This document shows, piece after piece, positions 40,901-57,208 of a stretch of 57,208 nucleotides of DNA (the stretch's first letter is position 1; each line of letters begins with the position of its first letter). The position numbers and the translations under genes are program-made. The notes under the pieces are model-generated. The model was not told the origin of the DNA, searched no databases, and saw only the letters and a list, made by a program, of their open reading frames with translations. Source of the stretch: Acidobacteriota bacterium (lineage in GTDB: Bacteria; Acidobacteriota; Terriglobia; Bryobacterales; Bryobacteraceae); NCBI GenBank assembly GCA_018268715.1, contig JAFDVZ010000002.1, forward strand, positions 1 through 57,208. The letters run 5' to 3'.

Positions 40901-41833
40901 CAGCGCCGCGATCAGCGACGCCGTCTCCCCCAGGTTCAGCTTCACCGGACTCGCCGCCCCGGAAATCACGATGCTCGACACCGGCGCCCGCAGCGTCGCC
41001 CCCGCCCCCGGATTCGCCGGATCGTAATCGATCGACCCGCCCTCAAACGTCTGCCGGACCTTCCCGCTCGACAGCGTGAATTCATCGGAAAGCGGCAACC
41101 CCAGCGCCCCCTGGTCGCCGCCGTTGGCCGCATACAGCGTATACACCGGCGCCCGCACCGCGTAGTACTTCCCGTTGGAGGTGCCCGACGTGATGCTATA
41201 CACCGCCCCGCGGTCGAAATACTGCGCCGTGGCCGTCGTGCCCGCCTTCGACGTCACCGACGTTTCCGCGCTCTCGGCCGGTCCCACGGTCCCCACGCCG
41301 CCCCACGTCTGCCACTTGGTGTAATAAGGATCGCGCGTGGCGAACGTCGAGGCCCCATTGTTCACCGCGTTCGCGAACACAAACAGCACGTACGGTTTAT
41401 CGAAAAACTGGTAGGTGCAGGTGTTGGCGACGGCAAGCGCCGGGCAGTTGGCGCTGTCCATGGTCGGCATTCCCACCGTGCTCGCCCCCAGCGAGGTGTA
41501 GTAGGCGTACAACCCCGGCCACATCTGCACAACGCCCCCGCTCGTTTCGGTCGCCGCGGCAGTGGCGTCCGCCAGCACCAGCGCATACTTCACGCCCGAC
41601 GTCTTGGCCGCGTCCTGAAACTCCTGCACCAGGCCGTTGGAGCCCAGTTTCTTGACATCGGCCAGCGGCGGGTAGCTCACCAGCGACGCAAACCCGTTGC
41701 GATAATAGGCCCGTTGGAACAGTTGTTGGATGGCGACGCTCGGCGCGCCGCTCCCGACATCGACCGCTAAGCAGGGTCCTAGCGTGACCATCGCGGCCAC
41801 GCCGGCAGTAAGCGCGCACCGGGTGAGTCTCAT
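37967..41833 (-). CDS. Large secreted protein: LGFP-type repeats, C39-like domain, Solibacter C-terminal domain
   Basis: A 1288-residue secreted protein with a signal peptide (LTAGVAAMVTLGPCLA). The N-terminal half carries LGFP-like repeats, each with a LG.P..DE...GGRRQ.FEGG..DY pattern (for example LGAPVGDEYTANGRRRQDFE). A Big_2-like segment (LTDRQVTWLTSDARVASVQG) and other Ig-like parts are interspersed. Residues ~815-955 resemble a peptidase C39-like domain with the His (GPHWVAAYGV) and Asp (VIADPSPDY) but no Cys at the expected start (AGNGAMLGATASILRW). The last ~200 residues are the Solibacter C-terminal domain (NAATFTGAIAPGGIVTIFG). Probably a cell-wall or surface-binding protein; peptidase activity is doubtful. 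Confidence 0.87.
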   Translation of the reverse strand: MRLTRCALTAGVAAMVTLGPCLAVDVGSGAPSVAIQQLFQRAYYRNGFASLVSYPPLADVKKLGSNGLVQEFQDAAKTSGVKYALVLADATAAATETSGGVVQMWPGLYAYYTSLGASTVGMPTMDSANCPALAVANTCTYQFFDKPYVLFVFANAVNNGASTFATRDPYYTKWQTWGGVGTVGPAESAETSVTSKAGTTATAQYFDRGAVYSITSGTSNGKYYAVRAPVYTLYAANGGDQGALGLPLSDEFTLSSGKVRQTFEGGSIDYDPANPGAGATLRAPVSSIVISGAASPVKLNLGETASLIAALADGAGNALTDRQVTWLTSDARVASVQGSGYLATVKATGGGSATVTATAEGKTSAGIKFMVTAPCCQIGEGAPTTAVSQAFQDAVARNRLSVQLPAASGVARVGAGYVQELSDATTGATYLVAVSDASKAGYVVAGAILARYVELGGPAGTLGYPAADASAGGRQLFQNGALAGTPVQVVSGAILTKWAALGYETGVAGSPSGGVAAAVTFRATAVQYQLFTAATVVASGSAKVFAVSGLIQAKYVALGGPAGKLGAPVGDEYTANGRRRQDFEGGSADYAAGDGQANVTQSARTPVVSASPGTALAGTTVRLGAGGFDDGATLKVSMTGQADFTVAASNGAYVWDYYVAASTKSGTVTVRAVDAGNAAKSAQASFAITALADAKLTVAAAGGDAQTGAPGAVLALPMTVAVTDAAGNPAVGLAVAWAASPGARIEAAGTATDANGRASATVRLPASEGVALVTATTNRQVVTLSARAARRTLANFPTLTTAVDGVMGAGPSTIAGNGAMLGATASILRWEQLQGVAGTANGTADVATLNQYLTGYCSADASGTQVCDGYVAVGDSAVPYVNLWRAAAFAGGTLDVAPGTADLGWIRDEIGQGVPVLVALEVRKSGAAAGPHWVAAYGVGADGSVVIADPSPDYARTSLSQYLSGFTVGGQQISATLAGAAAFVAGKPSTGGFLVAANAKIGITSAAGACGSSFGSAAWGGGDPVQFRMCAGTAPPYQLDLAGTLFRGYLTDWGTPVGQFELTGGGAATLEVYRSGGNWRVGRMATGITAGGVVNAATFTGAIAPGGIVTIFGAGLSPNPVVTVGGVAAQVLAAYPFQVNAVVPQTAAAGAATVTVATGTGTASADVTISAVAPALFTLSDTQGAVVNADGTVNSSANPARRGTVILAFGTGFGATTGDGTVARTAAAVTGRVGGISVPIVFAGLAPGFPGLYQLNISLPAGMAPGLALPFSVQQSNIASNTVVVAVQ

Positions 41834-41879
41834 GGGGAAACGGTTTATTCTACTAAACCCACCGTCCCCGCCGAAGTTT

Positions 41880-41901
41880 CAGCCCGTCCCTTACAGGCCC
41901 A
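41880..41901. repeat. Left copy of a perfect 22-bp direct repeat
   Basis: Begins CAGCCCGTCC and ends ACAGGCCCA, identical over 22 bp to 44334-44355 and in the same orientation. It lies 1 bp from the stop codon of the restriction endonuclease gene and copies the 3' end (including the stop codon) of the substrate-binding protein gene on the other side. Confidence 0.9.
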
Positions 41902-41902
41902 G

Positions 41903-42637
41903 CTACAGGGCTTTCTCGAGCCGCCCGTCCCGGAATTCGTAGAAATCGGGATTGCGGTGCGCGACCAACGTCAGGACCTCGTCCAGAACCGCGCTGAACG
42001 AAAGCTGGTTTTCGGGATCGCCAACGGCGTAGGCTCTGAGCCGGGCGGATTCCGGATCGGCATCCAGAAGGATCAGATAGAAGCGCTCATACTGTTCTTC
42101 CCGTCCCGCTGGATCGTCCCGCCCGGTGAAAAGCCGGAGACGGCTGTGCGCATTCAAGAATGTCGATCTCCGCTTCGCGGTGCCGTCGTTCTCAGCATCC
42201 TTGTCTAGAAAGAAAAATCCCGCGAGAACTGCGTAAGGGAAGCGCCGGTGCAACGTTACCGCTTCCATCAGCATGTCGCCGCGTCGGTTTACGAGATTCT
42301 TCTGGAAGTTCCTGGTCCTGCCATCGCGAAAGTTGATCGTCTTGACCGAAATGGCAAGCAGCAAACCGGACTCTTCCGTTGCCCATGTCACGTCGACCTT
42401 CTTCGCCCCTAGTCCGCCCGCCATTCTGCGTTCGGCGCCGGAATCCCCAAGATCTCCCTCGCCGGCAGGCCTCACCTCCGCGAGCCCCCGCTGCCGCAGC
42501 TCCTCAGCGAGCGCCAAAGCGACCTTCTGCGAGACCTGCTCGCTGTACGCTTTCTTGTCTTCCCTGCTAGAGCTATCTGGCGGTTTCGGAGGCAGCAACT
42601 TCAGTCCGGCCTCCAGCAGATCATCGACTCTTTCCAT
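41903..42637 (-). CDS. Putative type II restriction endonuclease (PD-(D/E)XK fold)
   Basis: A 244-residue protein of no specific named family that I can assign. The stretch GAKKVDVTWATEESG followed by LLLAISVKTINFRD (about residues 76-102) reads as a PD-(D/E)XK-like active site with the acidic residue in KKVDVTW and the K in SVKT. The ATG lies inside the end of the methyltransferase gene (17-nt overlap), so translation of the two is coupled and the nuclease is made after the methyltransferase. This order and overlap, plus the direct repeats around the pair, are the main evidence for a restriction role. Confidence 0.65.
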   Translation of the reverse strand: MERVDDLLEAGLKLLPPKPPDSSSREDKKAYSEQVSQKVALALAEELRQRGLAEVRPAGEGDLGDSGAERRMAGGLGAKKVDVTWATEESGLLLAISVKTINFRDGRTRNFQKNLVNRRGDMLMEAVTLHRRFPYAVLAGFFFLDKDAENDGTAKRRSTFLNAHSRLRLFTGRDDPAGREEQYERFYLILLDADPESARLRAYAVGDPENQLSFSAVLDEVLTLVAHRNPDFYEFRDGRLEKAL

Positions 42638-44288
42638 TCTTCTGGCCCCGCCCCCTCACAATCCTTCTCATCATCAAGGTTGCGCGCGCATCCCGCACCG
42701 CCCGGATCTCCCCATCCGTCAGCCTCAGTTGATCTTTCAGTAGTATCCGATCGACAATTTCCACCGCCGGAGCGATGTCGCTTCTCCGCAACAGTCCCCC
42801 AACCTGGGCCTGCAACAGTCGGAGCGTCGGCGCGGCCTGTTGCAACACTTCGTACGACGGTAACGGTAATACATCGGCCTCCTTCGGCTCGTGCTTCAGA
42901 AGTCCGCCTCCGTACGAGCGCCCCACAATCTCCGCCCCAAGAAGAGTGACGCTGTTCAGCCCTGCTACCGCCAGGAACTCCAGCCCCAGTTCACGCCGGT
43001 CCTTTTTCAACGCCACTCCGTACACTGAGTTCAGCAAATGGACTCCGGAGCTGTTGCGAACCATGCGCGTCCGGTCATGATTCATATACGTGAAAAGGAA
43101 ATCGGGCCGCTCCACCAGCGGAACCCGCCACCACGGCGTGCGAACCGAACACTTGTATCCCTTGTCGACCTTCGCGGCCTCACCTTTCGCGATGTATCGC
43201 CATGCAGCCTCGGACGGATTGCCGCCGGGCGCGAAAAGGTAACAGCGCTCCCCACCCTCAGCCAGACTCTCCCACGCGGGTTGGGAAAACGTCAGACCGC
43301 GGAGGTGCCGCGATCCCGGCGGGGATATCGGCAGAATTTCGGCCTGGGCCAGTCCATGCCTCTTCACATCCTCCCGCGACAGGGTGAAATAGCCGTTGTT
43401 ACCCGTCACGGCTCCCAGGTAGGTCTCGCCCCAGTCGAGCAGCGCCTCAAACCCGCAGCTTCCGAGCAACTGCTCGTACAGCTCAAACGCCTTGGCCGGA
43501 AGCAGCGCGCCGGTCCATTTGTCATCGCCTTTTGGCGTGAAACCGGTCCAGCTTCCGGCGGGAATGTTCTCGAGATCCTGCAGATCCCTGGCCTGAAAGA
43601 CCTCGAAGCGCCCGGCCCCGCCTGAGCCTTCGGCCAACAGCAGCACGACCTCTTCGAGAACCCCTGGAAAAACCAGATTCTCAAACAGCAGCAACCGCAC
43701 TGTCGCGAAGCGCTCGAGCAGGAACCGGCGGATCCTCGACGCATACTTCACAGAGAGCAGTTCCGCGGGCAGCACCAGCGCCAGTCTGCCTTCCGGCTTG
43801 AGAAACGCCGAAGCGTGAACCGTAAAGGCGGCCCATGAACTCGCCAGATGATTGAGCTTAACGCCCTGTCTGGAGGCGGCGTTCACGGCGAGAAGACGGC
43901 CTGCGCCATTGAAATTCTGGTATCGGACGTAAGGTGGGTTGCCGGTCACCGCGTCGAATGCCGCGTCCGGCTCCTGCACGAAGAAGTCGCCCGCCGTCAA
44001 TGTCGCCTGCATCCCCTCGGACGATAGAAGGCCTTGCGCTTCGCGGATCGATTGAATGTGGATGTCGAACCCGTGGAGCCGGTTGCGGAGGTTGCCGGAA
44101 TAACCCAGATCCCGCAGCCGCGAACCCGCGCTAAGCAGAAACGCCGCCTCTCCGCAGGACGGCTCCAGGACGCGGTCGTCCCGCGTCCGGATCGCCCAGG
44201 AGGTCAGGAAGTTGGCGATTTCGGGTGGCGTGAAGAATGCGCCCCGCGCCTTGCGCCCGTCCAGGTTCGGGACCGGAAACATCGCCAT
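42621..44288 (-). CDS. N6-adenine DNA methyltransferase (Eco57I/TaqI-like)
   Basis: A 555-residue gamma-type SAM-dependent methyltransferase. Motif X is RGAFFTPPEIANFL, motif I is VLEPSCGEAAFLLSAG and the catalytic motif IV is VTGNPPYVRYQNF; the C-terminal ~250 residues would be the target-recognition region. It should methylate adenine in a specific site and protect against the endonuclease encoded downstream. An in-frame ATG at 44310-44312 is eight codons upstream, but TATACT at 44298-44303 lies between the two ATGs and 9 nt before the inner one; I therefore start at the inner ATG. The recognition sequence cannot be predicted. Confidence 0.88.
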   Translation of the reverse strand: MAMFPVPNLDGRKARGAFFTPPEIANFLTSWAIRTRDDRVLEPSCGEAAFLLSAGSRLRDLGYSGNLRNRLHGFDIHIQSIREAQGLLSSEGMQATLTAGDFFVQEPDAAFDAVTGNPPYVRYQNFNGAGRLLAVNAASRQGVKLNHLASSWAAFTVHASAFLKPEGRLALVLPAELLSVKYASRIRRFLLERFATVRLLLFENLVFPGVLEEVVLLLAEGSGGAGRFEVFQARDLQDLENIPAGSWTGFTPKGDDKWTGALLPAKAFELYEQLLGSCGFEALLDWGETYLGAVTGNNGYFTLSREDVKRHGLAQAEILPISPPGSRHLRGLTFSQPAWESLAEGGERCYLFAPGGNPSEAAWRYIAKGEAAKVDKGYKCSVRTPWWRVPLVERPDFLFTYMNHDRTRMVRNSSGVHLLNSVYGVALKKDRRELGLEFLAVAGLNSVTLLGAEIVGRSYGGGLLKHEPKEADVLPLPSYEVLQQAAPTLRLLQAQVGGLLRRSDIAPAVEIVDRILLKDQLRLTDGEIRAVRDARATLMMRRIVRGRGQKNGKSR

Positions 44289-44297
44289 TTGAACACT

Positions 44298-44303
44298 AGT
44301 ATA
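44298..44303 (-). promoter_or_regulatory. Candidate -10 element of the restriction-modification operon
   Basis: TATACT on the minus strand, 9 nt before the preferred methyltransferase ATG. It lies inside the inserted segment, so the module would carry its own promoter. No -35 is evident. Confidence 0.45.
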
Positions 44304-44333
44304 GGCTGGCATGATAAGGCCAAGGCGCCGATC

Positions 44334-44355
44334 CAGCCCGTCCCTTACAGGCCCA
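44334..44355. repeat. Right copy of the 22-bp direct repeat
   Basis: Identical to 41880-41901. It covers the last codons and stop codon of the substrate-binding protein gene, which makes this the probable original target and the left copy the duplicate. Confidence 0.9.
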
Positions 44356-45262
44356 TGTCCTTCAGCATCTGCTCGGCCACGTCTTTCAGGTTCCCCTTCA
44401 TCACCGCCACCCGGTAGGCCGCCCGCCGGACCGAATCGTTGGTGAACTTGCCCGACAGCGCCTCCAGCGCCGGCCGCGTCCGTGGATCCCTCCCCAGCGC
44501 CTCCTGGCCCGCGAACAGGCACGTCCGGGCCTCCCCGAAAGCGTTCAAATCGTCCTTCAGCACCGCGAACCCCTCGCCCTCCAGCGGACCATCCGTGTCC
44601 CGCCCCGCGATCATGCTCACCTGGTTATCCATCAACGCCGGGTACAGCGTCGTCGCCGGCATCGCCCGCGGCGCCACCTGCAACGGCAGCTTGTAGGTGC
44701 TCATCAGCGCCGTGTAGCCGTCATTGCGCGCCTCGAACTCGTTCGTATAGGCCAGCGTCCACGCCAGCTTCGACTTCGCCGCCTGGCTCAGCGTCGTCAT
44801 CCCGCCCGCCTTCTGGTCGCTCGCCCGAATCACCATCGCCATCCGCCCGTGCACCCCCAGCGGCTTCAACGCCACAATCCGCGCCAGCCGCTGCATCTCG
44901 CCCCGCACCCGCTCATATACAATGTCCGGATTCGGGTCGATCGGCTCCTTCAGGATCGCCACCACCACCGCGTTGGTCTCTTCCGGGTAGATATTCACCG
45001 TGCCCAGCATCAGGCTTTCGTAGGCGATCTGCGTGCCGCCGATGTCGAACTTCCGGATCACCGGAGTCCCTAGTTGTTTTTCAAGCAGTTGCGCCGTCAC
45101 CTCCGCCACCACGTTACGATCCGTGGCTCCGTTGGAGCCCACCACCAGCGGCGGCGCCTTGCGCGCGCAACCCGACGCCCCGGCCGCCAACACGGCCGTC
45201 ACCAGCGCCAGTAGAACGTTCCGACGAGTCAGAACAGTACGATTGGCCGAAGAGGTTTGCAC
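44345..45262 (-). CDS. OpuAC/OsmF-type substrate-binding lipoprotein
   Basis: A 305-residue binding protein of the glycine betaine/choline type. The N-terminus has a twin-arginine pair and a lipobox (TRRNVLLALVTAVLAAGASGC), so it is likely a lipid-anchored periplasmic protein. The mature start VVGSNGATDRNVVAEVTAQL replaces the usual VGSKxFTEQ of the family, and IYPEETNAVV matches the Y-x-E ligand-loop region. No permease or ATPase gene is adjacent, so it is an orphan here. The start is a GTG; GATAAC (45272-45277) lies 9 nt upstream, with no Shine-Dalgarno. Its 3' end was the target of the neighbouring insertion. Confidence 0.83.
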   Translation of the reverse strand: MQTSSANRTVLTRRNVLLALVTAVLAAGASGCARKAPPLVVGSNGATDRNVVAEVTAQLLEKQLGTPVIRKFDIGGTQIAYESLMLGTVNIYPEETNAVVVAILKEPIDPNPDIVYERVRGEMQRLARIVALKPLGVHGRMAMVIRASDQKAGGMTTLSQAAKSKLAWTLAYTNEFEARNDGYTALMSTYKLPLQVAPRAMPATTLYPALMDNQVSMIAGRDTDGPLEGEGFAVLKDDLNAFGEARTCLFAGQEALGRDPRTRPALEALSGKFTNDSVRRAAYRVAVMKGNLKDVAEQMLKDMGL

Positions 45263-50889: not shown

Positions 50890-53800
50890 ATGTCAGACCG
50901 CGCGTGTGTCTATTGCGGTAAACGCTTAACGCTCTTCCTGAAGTTCTCCGGCGACGGGAAATTCTGCTCATCCGCCCACCGTAAGCTGTATCAGGAGGAG
51001 ATGGAGAAGCTCGCCCTCGAGAGCCTCACGCGGACCGCCCAGGTCACGCGCAGTCACATGGCGGAGGCGGCGGCGCCCCGCGATCCGGCGCCGGCGCCGG
51101 CTCCCAAACCCGCGCCAGCACCGGAATTTCCCGAACCGCCGCTTTGCACCGAGCCCCAGATCTGGATGCCCTCGCCGCGCGTGGCGGCCGCCGGCCGACG
51201 GAAGACGTTCGGCGCAATGCTGCGGCTGGGGATCGCGGTTACCGAACGGGAGCTTCCGGAACCGGTGCGCCGGGCCCCGTCCCAACGGGGGCTGATGCGC
51301 ATCCGCGTCCGCCGGCCGGCGCTCCCCGCCGCCACGCCGCGGACGACTCTCGACAACCCGTTGATCATCGCGGAGATCGCTCTCCCTTATGAGCCGTCTC
51401 CGGCGCCTGCGAACGTCGCCCTGCCGCCCGCCCGCGCCGCCGAGGAGCCGCCGGCCGCCGGAATGGTCCCGATCCGGGTGAAGACGGCGACACGGAAAGC
51501 TAAGCGCGCACTCCCGAAGCCCGTCGCGGGAACCCTCGCGATACGGATCGCCAGCCGACTCGCCGAGCCGTTTCCGAGGCCGGTGCTTCCGGCGCCGGGA
51601 CGGGTTGGGATGCGAATCGCGCCGGCGCCGCCGCCCCCGGTGGTCCGAATGGGGACCGGCGCCCGCCAGCGCCGCCCTTCGGCGGCGTTGGCCGCGGCGA
51701 TTCTGGCCGGGACATTCACACTGCTTTCGGGGCGCGCTCACGCCCGGAACACGGGTTCGCCGGAGCCGGGACGCCGGCTTGCAATCCGGATCGCGGCGTG
51801 TCAGGAGGTGAATCCGGACCGGTCTCTGGCCTCGCCGGAATCGTTGGCGGTTCGGCCGGCCGCCGGATCGAGTGGGGCGCTCGCTGATGGCGCGCACGGA
51901 CTAGGGCCTGTCAACCAACTCCAGCCAGTCTGGCGGGGCGACGCAGAGTGGGCGCCGGTTTCCCGGCCGTTGCCCTGGATTTCCAGTTCGGAGGAAACGC
52001 TGTCAGGGCTGCTACCGTCGGCGCCCGGCGCCTGCGGCGTGACGTGGGAACCGTTGTTCCCGGCGATGGCGTCGGCCACCACGATTCATGTCGACGCGGC
52101 GAGGGCGTCGGCTCTGTCGTTGGCCGCGGCGACGCCGGCACTGCGCCCATGCTCGGTTGAGATTTGCGCCTCGCGACCGGTCCGGCGGGTGTTGTCTCCG
52201 GCCACCGCGGGGTTGGCGCCGCTGGGGCTCGCGCCGGCTCGGACGGGTCCCCCGCGCATTGTTGGGACAGCGCCGGCCGCAAGGAGACGTGAGACTTCGG
52301 TCCAAAAATCGGTGAGGGCGGATTCTCCAGCGATTGGAGCGACGGCGCAACCGGCGTCGACTCCGGCCGCGGCGGGATTGGTGGGGATGGGGCTACCGGC
52401 GGCGAAGCAGGTTCCCGCGACGATCGTCGGGAAGACGCTGCCGGCTCGGACGCCGTTGGCTCCGACAACCGCTCGACGCGAGGCGCCGGTGTGCGCGCCG
52501 GCGAATACGGTCGCCTCGGAGGTGGTCGGGGCGGCGCCGCCGGCTCAACAGGAGTCGGCGCCGGCGATGGCGGGGCTCGTTTCGTTGCGGCTCTTGGCGG
52601 CCAGGACGGTTTCCGCGGCGATCATTGGCGGGGCATCCCCTGAGATGCTGCCGGTTGACCCGGCGATGGGCTCGTCGGCGCCGCGCAGGGAGGAGTTGGC
52701 TCCGGGCGCCGCTCGGTTGGTGGCGCTGAGGCTTGGGCCGGCTCCGTCGACAGTGTCGGAGGAATGTGCGCAGGCGGGTCGGCGGGTGTTGTCGCCGACT
52801 GCGGCCGGTTTGGTGGGGCTCGCGCTGGCTTCGACGCGGACGGTTTCATCGGCGCATGCCGGGACCGCTTCCCCGTGGGAACGTTTACCCGGTACTGCGA
52901 TTTGCTCGACGGAGGCGGGGCGGCAGGTGTTATCGCCGGCTGCGGCCGGTTTGGTGGGGCTCTCCCTGGCTTCGCCTCGGACGGCGCCTTCGACGATGAT
53001 CGGGAACACATCCACGTCGGAACGTCTGACCGATGACGCGATTTGCTCGGCGAAGGCGGGTCGGTTGATATTGATTCCGAATGCGGCCGCGTTGGTGGGG
53101 CTTACCCAGACCTCGCCTCGGACGGTTCCTTCGACGACGGTTGAGAACGCTTCCCCGTCGGAAGGTCTACCCGGTGCGGCTATTTGCCCGACGGAAGCAG
53201 GTCGGCAGGTGTTGACGCCGGCCGTGGCTGGTTTGGTGGGGCTCTCCCTGGCTTCGCCTCGGACGGTTTCATCGACGATGGTTGGGAACACATCCACGTC
53301 GGAACGTCTGACCGATGACGCGATTTGCTCGGCGGAGACGGGTCGGCTGATATTGATTCCGAATGCGGCCGCGTTGGTGGGGCTCACCCAGGCTTCGCCT
53401 CGGACGGTTCCTTCGACGACGGTTGAGAACGCTTCCCCGTCAGAACGTCTGACCGATGACGCGATTTGCTTGGCGGAGGCAGGTCGGCAGGTGTTATCGC
53501 CGGCTGCGGCCGGTTTGGTGAGGCTCGCGCCGGCTTCGACGCGGACGTTTTCATCGGTGCATGTCGGGGCCGCGTCCCCGTGGGAATATCTACCCGGTGT
53601 GGCGATTTGCCCGGCGGAGGCAGGTCGGCAGGTCTTGACGCCTGCCGTGGCTGGTTTGGTGGGGCTCTCCCTGGCTTCGCCTCAAACGGTTTCATCGACG
53701 ATGGTTGGGAACGCTTCCACATCGGAACGTCTGACCGATGACGCGACTTGCTCGGCGAAGGCGGGTAGGCAGATATTGATTTCGAGAGCGGCCGCGGTGG

Positions 53801-55026
53801 TGGGGCTCACGCCGGCTTCGACGCGGACAGTTGCCGCGATTTGCCCGGCGGAGGCAGGTCGGCAGGTGCTGTCGCCGGCCGCGGCTGTCTTGGTGGGGCT
53901 CTCCCTGGCTTCGCCTCGGACGGTTCCTTCGACGATCATTGGGAACGCTTCCCCGTCGGAACATCTGGTCGATGCCGCGATTTGCTCGATGAAGGCGGGT
54001 CGACAGGCGCTGTCGCCGGCTGCGGCCGGTTTGGTGGGGCTCGGCCTCGCTTCGCCTCGGACGATTCCTTCGACGATCATTGGGAACGCATCCCCGTCGG
54101 AACGGCTGGCCGAGGCCGCGATCGGTTCGATGAAGGCGGGCCGGCAGGTGTTGTCCCTGGCTGCGGCCGGGTTGTCGCCGCTCGGGCTGGCTTCGGCTCG
54201 AACGGCTCCTTCCGCAATCGTCGGGATCGCTTCGCCGGCCGGATGGGCGCCGGTTGCGGCGATTGGCTCCTCGGAGTCGCGTCGGGCGGTGTTGTCGCTG
54301 GTTGACGCGGGTCTAGCGACGCTGGGGCTTGGCTCGGCTCGGACTGTTCCCCCAACCATTGCCGGAACGGCGGTCGCCGAGAACGGCTCGCCCACGGTGG
54401 GGATTCGCCCGTTTGAGCCCGTGCGGCGGACACCCGCCCTGCTGGCGGCTACGCCGGTCGCGCTGCCTGTTGGACCGGCGGCGATGGAGGTCGAGTCGGC
54501 CGGCGGGTTGGCCTGCTTCATGGACTTTGCTTCGGCTTGCGCCGTCGCAGGACGGGAACTCGCTCCCCGCAGCAAACGCCTGCCTTCGGCGGCGCCCGCA
54601 CGGCCCTTCCGCGCGGCGCTGGGGACCGTCGAAGCGGATCCGATCGAGTTACATGCGCCGGCGGCGATGGGCGCCCTCGATTTGACCGCCGCCGCCCTGG
54701 CCGGGGCTCTCTATCCAGCTACTTCCGGAGCGCCGCGGCCGATCGGCGCCGCGCGGCCGCTTGCCATCTCCTGCATGCAATGGCCGGGAGCTGAGACTCC
54801 CATCGGATTCCGACACACGCAGGCGGGCGAGGGCGGACTGTTTATTCCGCAAATACGCACCAATACGCTGCGTCCGGCGATCCTCATCCTGCCCGGGCCT
54901 CCTGGTTCAACGCCTGTCGATGAGGCCGCGCATTCAGGGCGCACCTCGGTGATTTCCATCGCGGACCTGCGCGGGGGTTCCGCGCCTATCAAGGAGAGGG
55001 CGACCCTCGGCGCCCGGAGACGGTAA
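50890..55026 (+). CDS. Zinc-ribbon protein with twelve tandem 47-residue repeats
   Basis: A 1378-residue protein; AGGGAG precedes the ATG. An N-terminal treble-clef-like zinc site (C6, C9, C26, H30: CVYCGKR...FCSSAHRKLY) is followed by a short helix. Residues ~110-255 hold degenerate repeats around an (M/I)RI core (GLMRIRVRRPALP, TLAIRIASRLAEPFPRP). One hydrophobic segment occurs at ~262-280 (AALAAAILAGTFTLLSG). Residues 629-1176 are a 12-unit repeat array. The last ~200 residues are unique (AGEGGLFIPQIRTNTLRP). No enzyme motif is seen. It starts a two-gene operon with the TPR gene 6 nt downstream. The sense frame is open throughout, but antisense frames through the array are also largely open. 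Confidence 0.75.
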   Translation: MSDRACVYCGKRLTLFLKFSGDGKFCSSAHRKLYQEEMEKLALESLTRTAQVTRSHMAEAAAPRDPAPAPAPKPAPAPEFPEPPLCTEPQIWMPSPRVAAAGRRKTFGAMLRLGIAVTERELPEPVRRAPSQRGLMRIRVRRPALPAATPRTTLDNPLIIAEIALPYEPSPAPANVALPPARAAEEPPAAGMVPIRVKTATRKAKRALPKPVAGTLAIRIASRLAEPFPRPVLPAPGRVGMRIAPAPPPPVVRMGTGARQRRPSAALAAAILAGTFTLLSGRAHARNTGSPEPGRRLAIRIAACQEVNPDRSLASPESLAVRPAAGSSGALADGAHGLGPVNQLQPVWRGDAEWAPVSRPLPWISSSEETLSGLLPSAPGACGVTWEPLFPAMASATTIHVDAARASALSLAAATPALRPCSVEICASRPVRRVLSPATAGLAPLGLAPARTGPPRIVGTAPAARRRETSVQKSVRADSPAIGATAQPASTPAAAGLVGMGLPAAKQVPATIVGKTLPARTPLAPTTARREAPVCAPANTVASEVVGAAPPAQQESAPAMAGLVSLRLLAARTVSAAIIGGASPEMLPVDPAMGSSAPRREELAPGAARLVALRLGPAPSTVSEECAQAGRRVLSPTAAGLVGLALASTRTVSSAHAGTASPWERLPGTAICSTEAGRQVLSPAAAGLVGLSLASPRTAPSTMIGNTSTSERLTDDAICSAKAGRLILIPNAAALVGLTQTSPRTVPSTTVENASPSEGLPGAAICPTEAGRQVLTPAVAGLVGLSLASPRTVSSTMVGNTSTSERLTDDAICSAETGRLILIPNAAALVGLTQASPRTVPSTTVENASPSERLTDDAICLAEAGRQVLSPAAAGLVRLAPASTRTFSSVHVGAASPWEYLPGVAICPAEAGRQVLTPAVAGLVGLSLASPQTVSSTMVGNASTSERLTDDATCSAKAGRQILISRAAAVVGLTPASTRTVAAICPAEAGRQVLSPAAAVLVGLSLASPRTVPSTIIGNASPSEHLVDAAICSMKAGRQALSPAAAGLVGLGLASPRTIPSTIIGNASPSERLAEAAIGSMKAGRQVLSLAAAGLSPLGLASARTAPSAIVGIASPAGWAPVAAIGSSESRRAVLSLVDAGLATLGLGSARTVPPTIAGTAVAENGSPTVGIRPFEPVRRTPALLAATPVALPVGPAAMEVESAGGLACFMDFASACAVAGRELAPRSKRLPSAAPARPFRAALGTVEADPIELHAPAAMGALDLTAAALAGALYPATSGAPRPIGAARPLAISCMQWPGAETPIGFRHTQAGEGGLFIPQIRTNTLRPAILILPGPPGSTPVDEAAHSGRTSVISIADLRGGSAPIKERATLGARRR
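52774..54417 (+). repeat. Tandem array: eleven 141-nt units and one 93-nt unit
   Basis: Units begin with codons for AGRQVLSPAAAGLVGLSLAS and end near DDAICSAK. Unit starts: 52774, 52915, 53056, 53197, 53338, 53479, 53620, 53761 (short), 53854, 53995, 54136 and 54277; the total is exactly 548 codons. Units 2 and 4 are alike, as are 3 and 5 (AGRLILIPNAAALVGLTQTS type), so a 282-nt dimer was duplicated. Unit 8 has lost 48 nt, in frame. The last two units are the most diverged. Confidence 0.92.
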
Positions 55027-56620: not shown

Positions 56621-57208
56621 GGCTCGCGCGCAGGAACGGCGGCTGGGCGGCGGCATGTCGGGATCTTCGACCGGGCCTCCCTTATGTGACGGACTGGGAT
56701 TGATGTGTTCCAGACGGGGCGGAGGCAGGGGCGCCTCGAGGACGGCGCGTTGACCGGCGAGGGCTCGCGTGCAGGAAGTGCAATCGGACTGCATGTCGGG
56801 GACCTTCTATTGGGCATCCGTCTGTGACGGCCAGGGATTGATGTGCTCCATACTGCGAGGGTGGTCGGCAGGGGCGCCTCAACGACGGCCGGCTGGCCAG
56901 TGACGGGCTCGCGTGCGGGAAGTGCGATAGGACTTCGGCGTGTCGGGCGCCTTCTCCGGGTCTCCCTTTGTGACGGCCTGAGTTCGATGCGCTCCGGACT
57001 GCGAGAGTGGGCGGCAGGGAGGCTTCACAACGACGGTCTGGCCGGTGAGGGCTCGCGTGCGGGGGGTGCGGCCGGACGGCGGCATGTTGGGGACCTTCGA
57101 TCGGGTCTCCCTTTTGAGACGGCCGGAGATCGATGTGCTCCGGACTGTGAGGGCGGTCGGCAGGGGCGCCTCAACGACGGCGGTCTGGAAGGTGACGGAC
57201 TCGCGTGC
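56621..57208. repeat. Decayed tandem array of ~141-148-nt units, cut by the window edge
   Basis: Unit starts, marked by GGCTCGCG or its variant, are at 56621, 56762, 56906, 57050 and 57198 (steps 141, 144, 144, 148). Each unit also has TGTGACGG-like, GATGTGCTCC-like and GGTCGGCAGG-like words. All frames are broken, so it is not a present-day gene. One frame of the last unit reads EGGRQGRLNDGGLEGDGLAC, which resembles the 47-residue unit of the upstream protein. The bases between the TPR stop and 56621 show nothing else. Confidence 0.7.

Follow-up and report, generated by a model that had tools for sequence, protein, structure and literature searches.

The locus described here lies in a 57,208-nucleotide window, the whole stretch of DNA that was analysed, at the start of contig JAFDVZ010000002.1 of an Acidobacteriota genome (GCA_018268715.1; Bryobacteraceae). 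It consists of two overlapping genes on the minus strand, framed by two copies of the 22-mer CAGCCCGTCCCTTACAGGCCCA, which stand at 41880–41901 and 44334–44355 in direct orientation and are identical at 22 of 22 positions. The segment bounded by the two copies (41902–44333, minus strand) holds a short upstream region, a gene for an N6-adenine DNA methyltransferase (M), a gene for a probable restriction endonuclease of an unnamed family (R) and one further base pair. M and R are the only genes between the repeats, and no integrase or transposase gene is present in 41902–44333. On the position, identity and orientation of the repeats, as on the gene overlap and the spacing given below, the first-pass annotation of the window proved accurate.

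M extends from 42621 to 44288, with a possible start at 44312, and R, a protein of 244 amino acids, is encoded at 41903–42637, both on the minus strand; the two genes overlap by 17 nt. A single base separates the stop codon of R (41903–41905) from the left repeat copy. Read from the ATG at 44312, M would have 563 amino acids and would begin 21 bp from the right copy, and read from the ATG at 44288 it would have 555 amino acids and begin 45 bp away. The latter is the more likely start, as judged from alignments, because homology begins just after it. The hexamer TATACT (44298–44303, minus strand) is compatible with a -10 element of the module. It fits the earlier proposal that the module has its own -10 element, to which a consensus scan of 41780–44420 lends no support, giving no sigma-70-type promoter. 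The segment has no terminal inverted repeats (scores as high were reached by 688 of 2000 shuffles), and the 22-mer lacks dyad symmetry (1759 of 2000 shuffles reached its score).

The right copy of the repeat comprises 11 nt of a gene for a substrate-binding protein (OpuAC; PF04069, E 2.2e-27; 44345–45262, minus strand), namely 8 coding nucleotides and the stop codon (44345–44347), together with the 11 nt beyond it. This gene, the putative target of the insertion, is intact. The next gene downstream of the module encodes an LGFP-repeat protein (PF08310; 37967–41833, minus strand) and lies 46 bp from the left copy.

The methyltransferase and its partner

M carries the Pfam domains PF02384, PF22837 and PF07669, matches the PADLOC model MTase_II with an E value of 1.2e-158 and matches M.TaqI chains at E 1.7e-10. 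Its domains are those of Eco57I/TaqI-type N6-adenine methyltransferases. The difference from these systems lies in the partner: R is small, is encoded as a protein of its own and belongs to a family without a name.

Comparison of R with Pfam, PADLOC and NCBIfam gave no match at the thresholds applied. Across 58 members of its family, any Pfam model that matches at all does so in a single sequence, with an E value no better than 0.013. The PADLOC model REase_II matches nine of the 58 weakly (best E 2.2e-4), the window's R not being among them, and the Csm2 model matches six, more weakly still. A PDB sequence search with R gave no match. A Foldseek search with the structural model of R (mean pLDDT 84) gave none at E 0.001 or better; its top row is the restriction enzyme BstEII at E 0.067, level with unrelated KaiC rows. 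R has 45 invariant positions, which include E69, D82, S97 and K99, and in the model D82 precedes a strand at 83–87, with S97 and K99 located within a strand at 91–101. These residues and the modelled strands would fit a PD-(D/E)XK-like nuclease. R is a probable restriction endonuclease, and the M–R pair is predicted to be, most likely, a type II-like restriction-modification (R-M) system.

In a pairwise comparison of the window's module, 56 relatives and G037 (1653 pairs), conservation is higher for R than for M in 97% of the pairs. In type II systems the reverse is the general pattern. The divergence of M is distributed along its whole length. Other acidobacterial modules (L104, corresponding to G013; L105/L106, corresponding to G037; and L173) have an R of the same family at ~60–65% identity and an M at only 34–37%. 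Such a conserved R beside a very different M may suggest partner exchange, a reading that was set aside after the comparisons above.

Origin and spread of the module

Relatives of R occur at 69 loci in what their database records give as five phyla: Pseudomonadota, Actinomycetota, Acidobacteriota, Planctomycetota and Bacillota. M lies beside R in 65 of them; in the other four (L125, L134, L155 and L158), where the stretch examined has no M, R is located at most 200 bp from a contig end. Matches to R were also obtained in six plasmid records, five over at least 80% of R and one weakly, and in four viral-collection contigs, with none in phage records; on plasmids, too, M and R occur as a pair. 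Among the best 40 locus pairs, several have little more than the two genes in common, and others, such as those among L135, L137 and L139 and that of L118 and L121, have long flanks in common.

Phylogenetic analysis of M by a quick method (58 rows) places the window's M in a 17-row set with 16 Pseudomonadota (SH-aLRT 95), nearest to Variovorax, other Betaproteobacteria and Mitsuaria/Roseateles. Far from this set, a Bacillota row shares a branch with two other acidobacterial rows (L173 and G037). The tree and the identity comparison used 56 of the 69 loci: beyond the four loci without M, L153 and L169 (M in pieces) and L177 and L179 (R cut or odd) were dropped, and L137, L139, L149, L151 and L160, which are close relatives of kept rows or have an uncertain start, were also left out by choice. 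L104 is included in the alignment and absent from the tree. The window's M is 59–61% identical to the best pseudomonadotal rows and 34% identical to the acidobacterial ones, and its R shares 73% identity with a Mitsuaria protein and 60–65% with acidobacterial proteins. At no more than 61% identity, even the nearest M does not point to a donor.

Base composition and codon use, which the first-pass annotation had suggested comparing, set the module apart from its surroundings in part. The segment has a GC content of 61.2%. Windows of its size across 457 kb average 65.0% (sd 2.1), and 3.3% of them are as low. The GC3 of M and R is 0.71, that of M being measured in a longer frame reaching 44522, against 0.83–0.86 in the genes on either side; values of 0.73–0.78 are found in some window genes farther from the module. 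Tetranucleotide use of the segment is unexceptional, with 18.7% of windows deviating as much. As far as sequence comparison can tell, the segment was very probably acquired horizontally, and a pseudomonadotal lineage was probably its source.

The repeats, the target gene and the flanks of related modules

The first-pass annotation held a 22-bp identity by chance to be very unlikely and considered that a dispersed 22-mer would speak against its reading. In the genome's own 7.63 Mb, a search allowing up to three mismatches returned two matches to the 22-mer, both at the module. None of 100 window shuffles yielded two matches, and under an independent-base model the expected number of matches is ~1e-9 with 50 x 50 placements allowed and 6e-4 when every pair in the window is counted. 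When the flanks of different module loci were paired with one another in all 4160 mismatched pairings, the longest common stretch was 14 bp. A 457-kb sample of the same contig, which amounts to 6% of the genome, contains 29 exact repeat pairs of at least 18 bp at distances of 300–8000 bp, 25 of which sit in repeat arrays at ~52.8 to 58 kb. Of the four pairs outside arrays, that of the module is the only one that is at least 22 bp long and more than 1 kb apart; the other three are two pairs of 23 bp, 843 and 387 bp apart, and one of 20 bp, 7153 bp apart. Two further genomes among 237 of the family (own included) match the 22-mer with up to two mismatches, at one place each, and the stretches around these matches show no similarity to window proteins. 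Chance identity of the two copies is excluded.

The window also contains, at 50890–55026, an open frame of 1378 amino acids without a Pfam match at E 1e-4. A 141-bp (47-amino-acid) repeat occupies 52768–54237 within this frame, and a second array, with a repeat of ~146 bp, begins at 56651.

The right copy had been described as the place where the substrate-binding protein gene ends, stop codon included, and comparison with homologues agrees with this: 34 of 37 end within five residues of the same C-terminal point. Because they end there, we take the right copy to be the original end of the gene and the left one to have been added, a polarity obtained from these alignments without an empty site. 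The search for an empty site that the first-pass annotation had recommended was carried out and yielded none among 237 family genomes (own included). Across these the best other homologue of the substrate-binding protein is 43% identical, and only one other of the genomes belongs to the same genus. An earlier search for homologues of the gene in 101 genomes (own included) also gave no empty site. The neighbourhood of the substrate-binding gene is not conserved. Nramp follows mgtE in all eight mgtE loci examined, and the next window gene is also present in two of the six LGFP loci examined; the substrate-binding gene is absent from these 14 stretches, and both mgtE and LGFP are absent from two examined stretches that contain it.

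Flanking repeats could be tested in 64 of the 69 relatives, four having no M in the stretch and one too little flank. Within 150 bp of the module, none of the 64 has an exact repeat comparable to the window's, the longest being 12 bp. In G013 and G037, which appear to recur among the loci as L153 and L155, the longest exact flank repeat within 300 bp is 11 bp, and four viral-collection and four plasmid loci have flank repeats of at most 10 bp within 150 bp. The possibility that the 22-bp repeats are part of the module was therefore rejected, as no such repeats accompany it in the 64 relatives or in the eight viral and plasmid loci. Relatives carrying the module without repeats, which had been named beforehand as evidence against an insertion, mean only this.

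When the search was widened to 3 kb with mismatches allowed, the pairs of L172 (44 bp, -495/+329) and L171 (42 bp, -1227/+275) outscore that of the window, and several other relatives score 15–17 against the window's 22. The imperfect 44-bp direct repeat of L172 resembles the 3' half of a tRNA, and ARAGORN calls no tRNA there. A tRNA gene is located at most 350 bp from the module in six of the 69 relatives (L118, L121, L123, L129, L153 and L160), all six facing the tRNA 3' end, a count that stands without a control rate and in which L118 and L121 share one site. Within the stretch examined, the tRNA end recurs across the module in none of the six except for an 11-bp match in L123.

Two further modules lie inside stretches of ~11 kb bounded by repeats of a tRNA 3' end: that of L143 between ~4255 and 15779 (tRNA-Ala, 44 bp) and that of L132 between ~5699 and 16371 (tRNA-Pro, 17 bp). 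Upstream of M, L133 and L127 have CAGTACTGGNTGCGTGTACAGT in common, a possible regulator site that is absent upstream of the window's M.

A proposed insertion with target duplication and its alternatives

The best explanation of the locus, and in our view a likely one, is a single insertion of the acquired M–R unit behind the substrate-binding gene with a 22-bp target duplication. A type II-like R-M unit, with M followed by an overlapping R and with ~45 bp upstream of M, would have been acquired horizontally and inserted once behind the substrate-binding protein gene, 11 bp past its stop codon. The target would have been opened with ends ~22 nt apart and both sides filled in, leaving 22 bp of target on each side and the gene intact. 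Joining by Ku and an ATP-dependent ligase may be guessed at, and the module may have been retained through defence or addiction, which is likewise a guess. The genome encodes Ku as well as two ATP-dependent ligase domains, on other contigs, making end joining possible.

One insertion with target duplication is supported by the very probable foreign origin of the segment, by its exact framing, by the right copy being native and by the absence of other genes from it. The repeat, the frame, the foreign grouping of M and the native right copy are shown; with no empty site among the 237 family genomes, the duplication itself, like the filling-in of staggered ends, is what we infer from them. The single insertion put forward in the first-pass annotation accordingly stands on its frame, its foreign origin and the polarity of its repeat, and falls short at the empty site. 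The lack of recurrence among the 64 relatives, the lack of a donor, the tRNA-adjacent relatives, the ordinary tetranucleotide use and the similarly low GC3 of some more distant window genes also count against it.

The main rival is site-specific integration at the gene 3' end by a tyrosine recombinase acting in trans, in which case the 22 bp would be the attL and attR sites of a cassette without its own integrase, or of what is left of a larger island. We regard this as unlikely, while noting that the repeat does lie at a gene 3' end with the stop codon included, a likeness to integrase-type islands that is reinforced by the six relatives facing a tRNA 3' end (two sharing a site), by the tRNA-bounded stretches of L143 and L132 and by 12 Phage_integrase places in the genome. 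Unlike such islands, however, the segment has no integrase inside it, and a genome-wide survey of tyrosine recombinases (Phage_integrase) places the closest one on this contig at 995,958, ~950 kb away. The 22-mer, moreover, has neither a dyad nor another copy in the genome, and the six tRNA-adjacent modules do not repeat the tRNA end across themselves, bar the short match in L123.

It is more doubtful still that the M–R pair is itself the smallest mobile unit, entering staggered breaks without a transposase and leaving a fixed duplication of ~22 bp, perhaps with its own nuclease doing the cutting. The same repeat is found in none of the tested relatives, and for another R-M system an IS-free strain is described as giving essentially no products (PMC3031569).

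Homologous or microhomology recombination, in which the incoming DNA brought the 22 bp along, perhaps from a donor whose gene ended in a similar way, and a single crossover left it on both sides, is very improbable. It would also be expected to leave an exact direct repeat without a transposase, and two of 28 R-M plasmid products are reported to have crossed over at 1 or 3 bp of identity (PMC3031569). A 22-bp match by chance is improbable, however, the pair arrived without any further gene, and homologues of the substrate-binding gene reach at most 43% identity in the 237 family genomes. Chance identity or a dispersed repeat as the source of the 22-bp pair is scarcely credible and was rejected for the genome itself, with nothing found in its favour and the genome search, shuffles, expectation, contig survey, mismatched flanks and family genomes all against it.

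Insertion of R-M units with long target duplications, the process proposed here as the preferred reading, has already been published (PMC3031569; PMC3874152; PMC4978471, citing Nobusato 2000 and Furuta 2010). Long, variable duplications have been reported from genome comparison (PMC3031569), and in its account of such insertions a review sets out two classes: in one the duplications are short and accompanied by imperfect inverted repeats, and in the other they are long and variable, on the order of 100 bp (PMC3874152). Like the long-duplication class, the window locus is a bare, chromosomal R-M unit with a direct repeat of the target on both sides. It differs in that its repeat measures 22 bp, where the review gives "in the order of 100 bp" (PMC3874152), and in that the class was recognised by comparison of related genomes, which this locus does not allow. 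With the short-duplication class it shares a compact unit and a duplicated target, but the window segment is without terminal inverted repeats (PMC3874152). A 22-bp duplication without inverted repeats fits neither class as that review describes them. The first-pass annotation had seen in the locus a clean example of long target duplication; the bare unit agrees with this, whereas its 22 bp fall between the two classes of the review (PMC3874152).

A limited literature search combining R-M systems, Acidobacteria and target duplication returned a single paper, which has target duplication only among its references; a printed case may exist. In our judgement, the movement of R-M genes without a known mobile element is poorly understood. 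The locus would be a tidy example of this already described movement and supplies the exact ends of one such event together with 69 relatives whose ends can be compared.

PabI-family pairs provide a further comparison, being likewise R-M pairs inserted alone or nearly so (PMC4615327). As presented there, their insertions were demonstrated by sibling-genome comparison and took the place of 62 bp or 4 bp of the target, with TAAA at one boundary undecided as a duplication (PMC4615327). These small target replacements are unlike the duplication proposed for the window locus.
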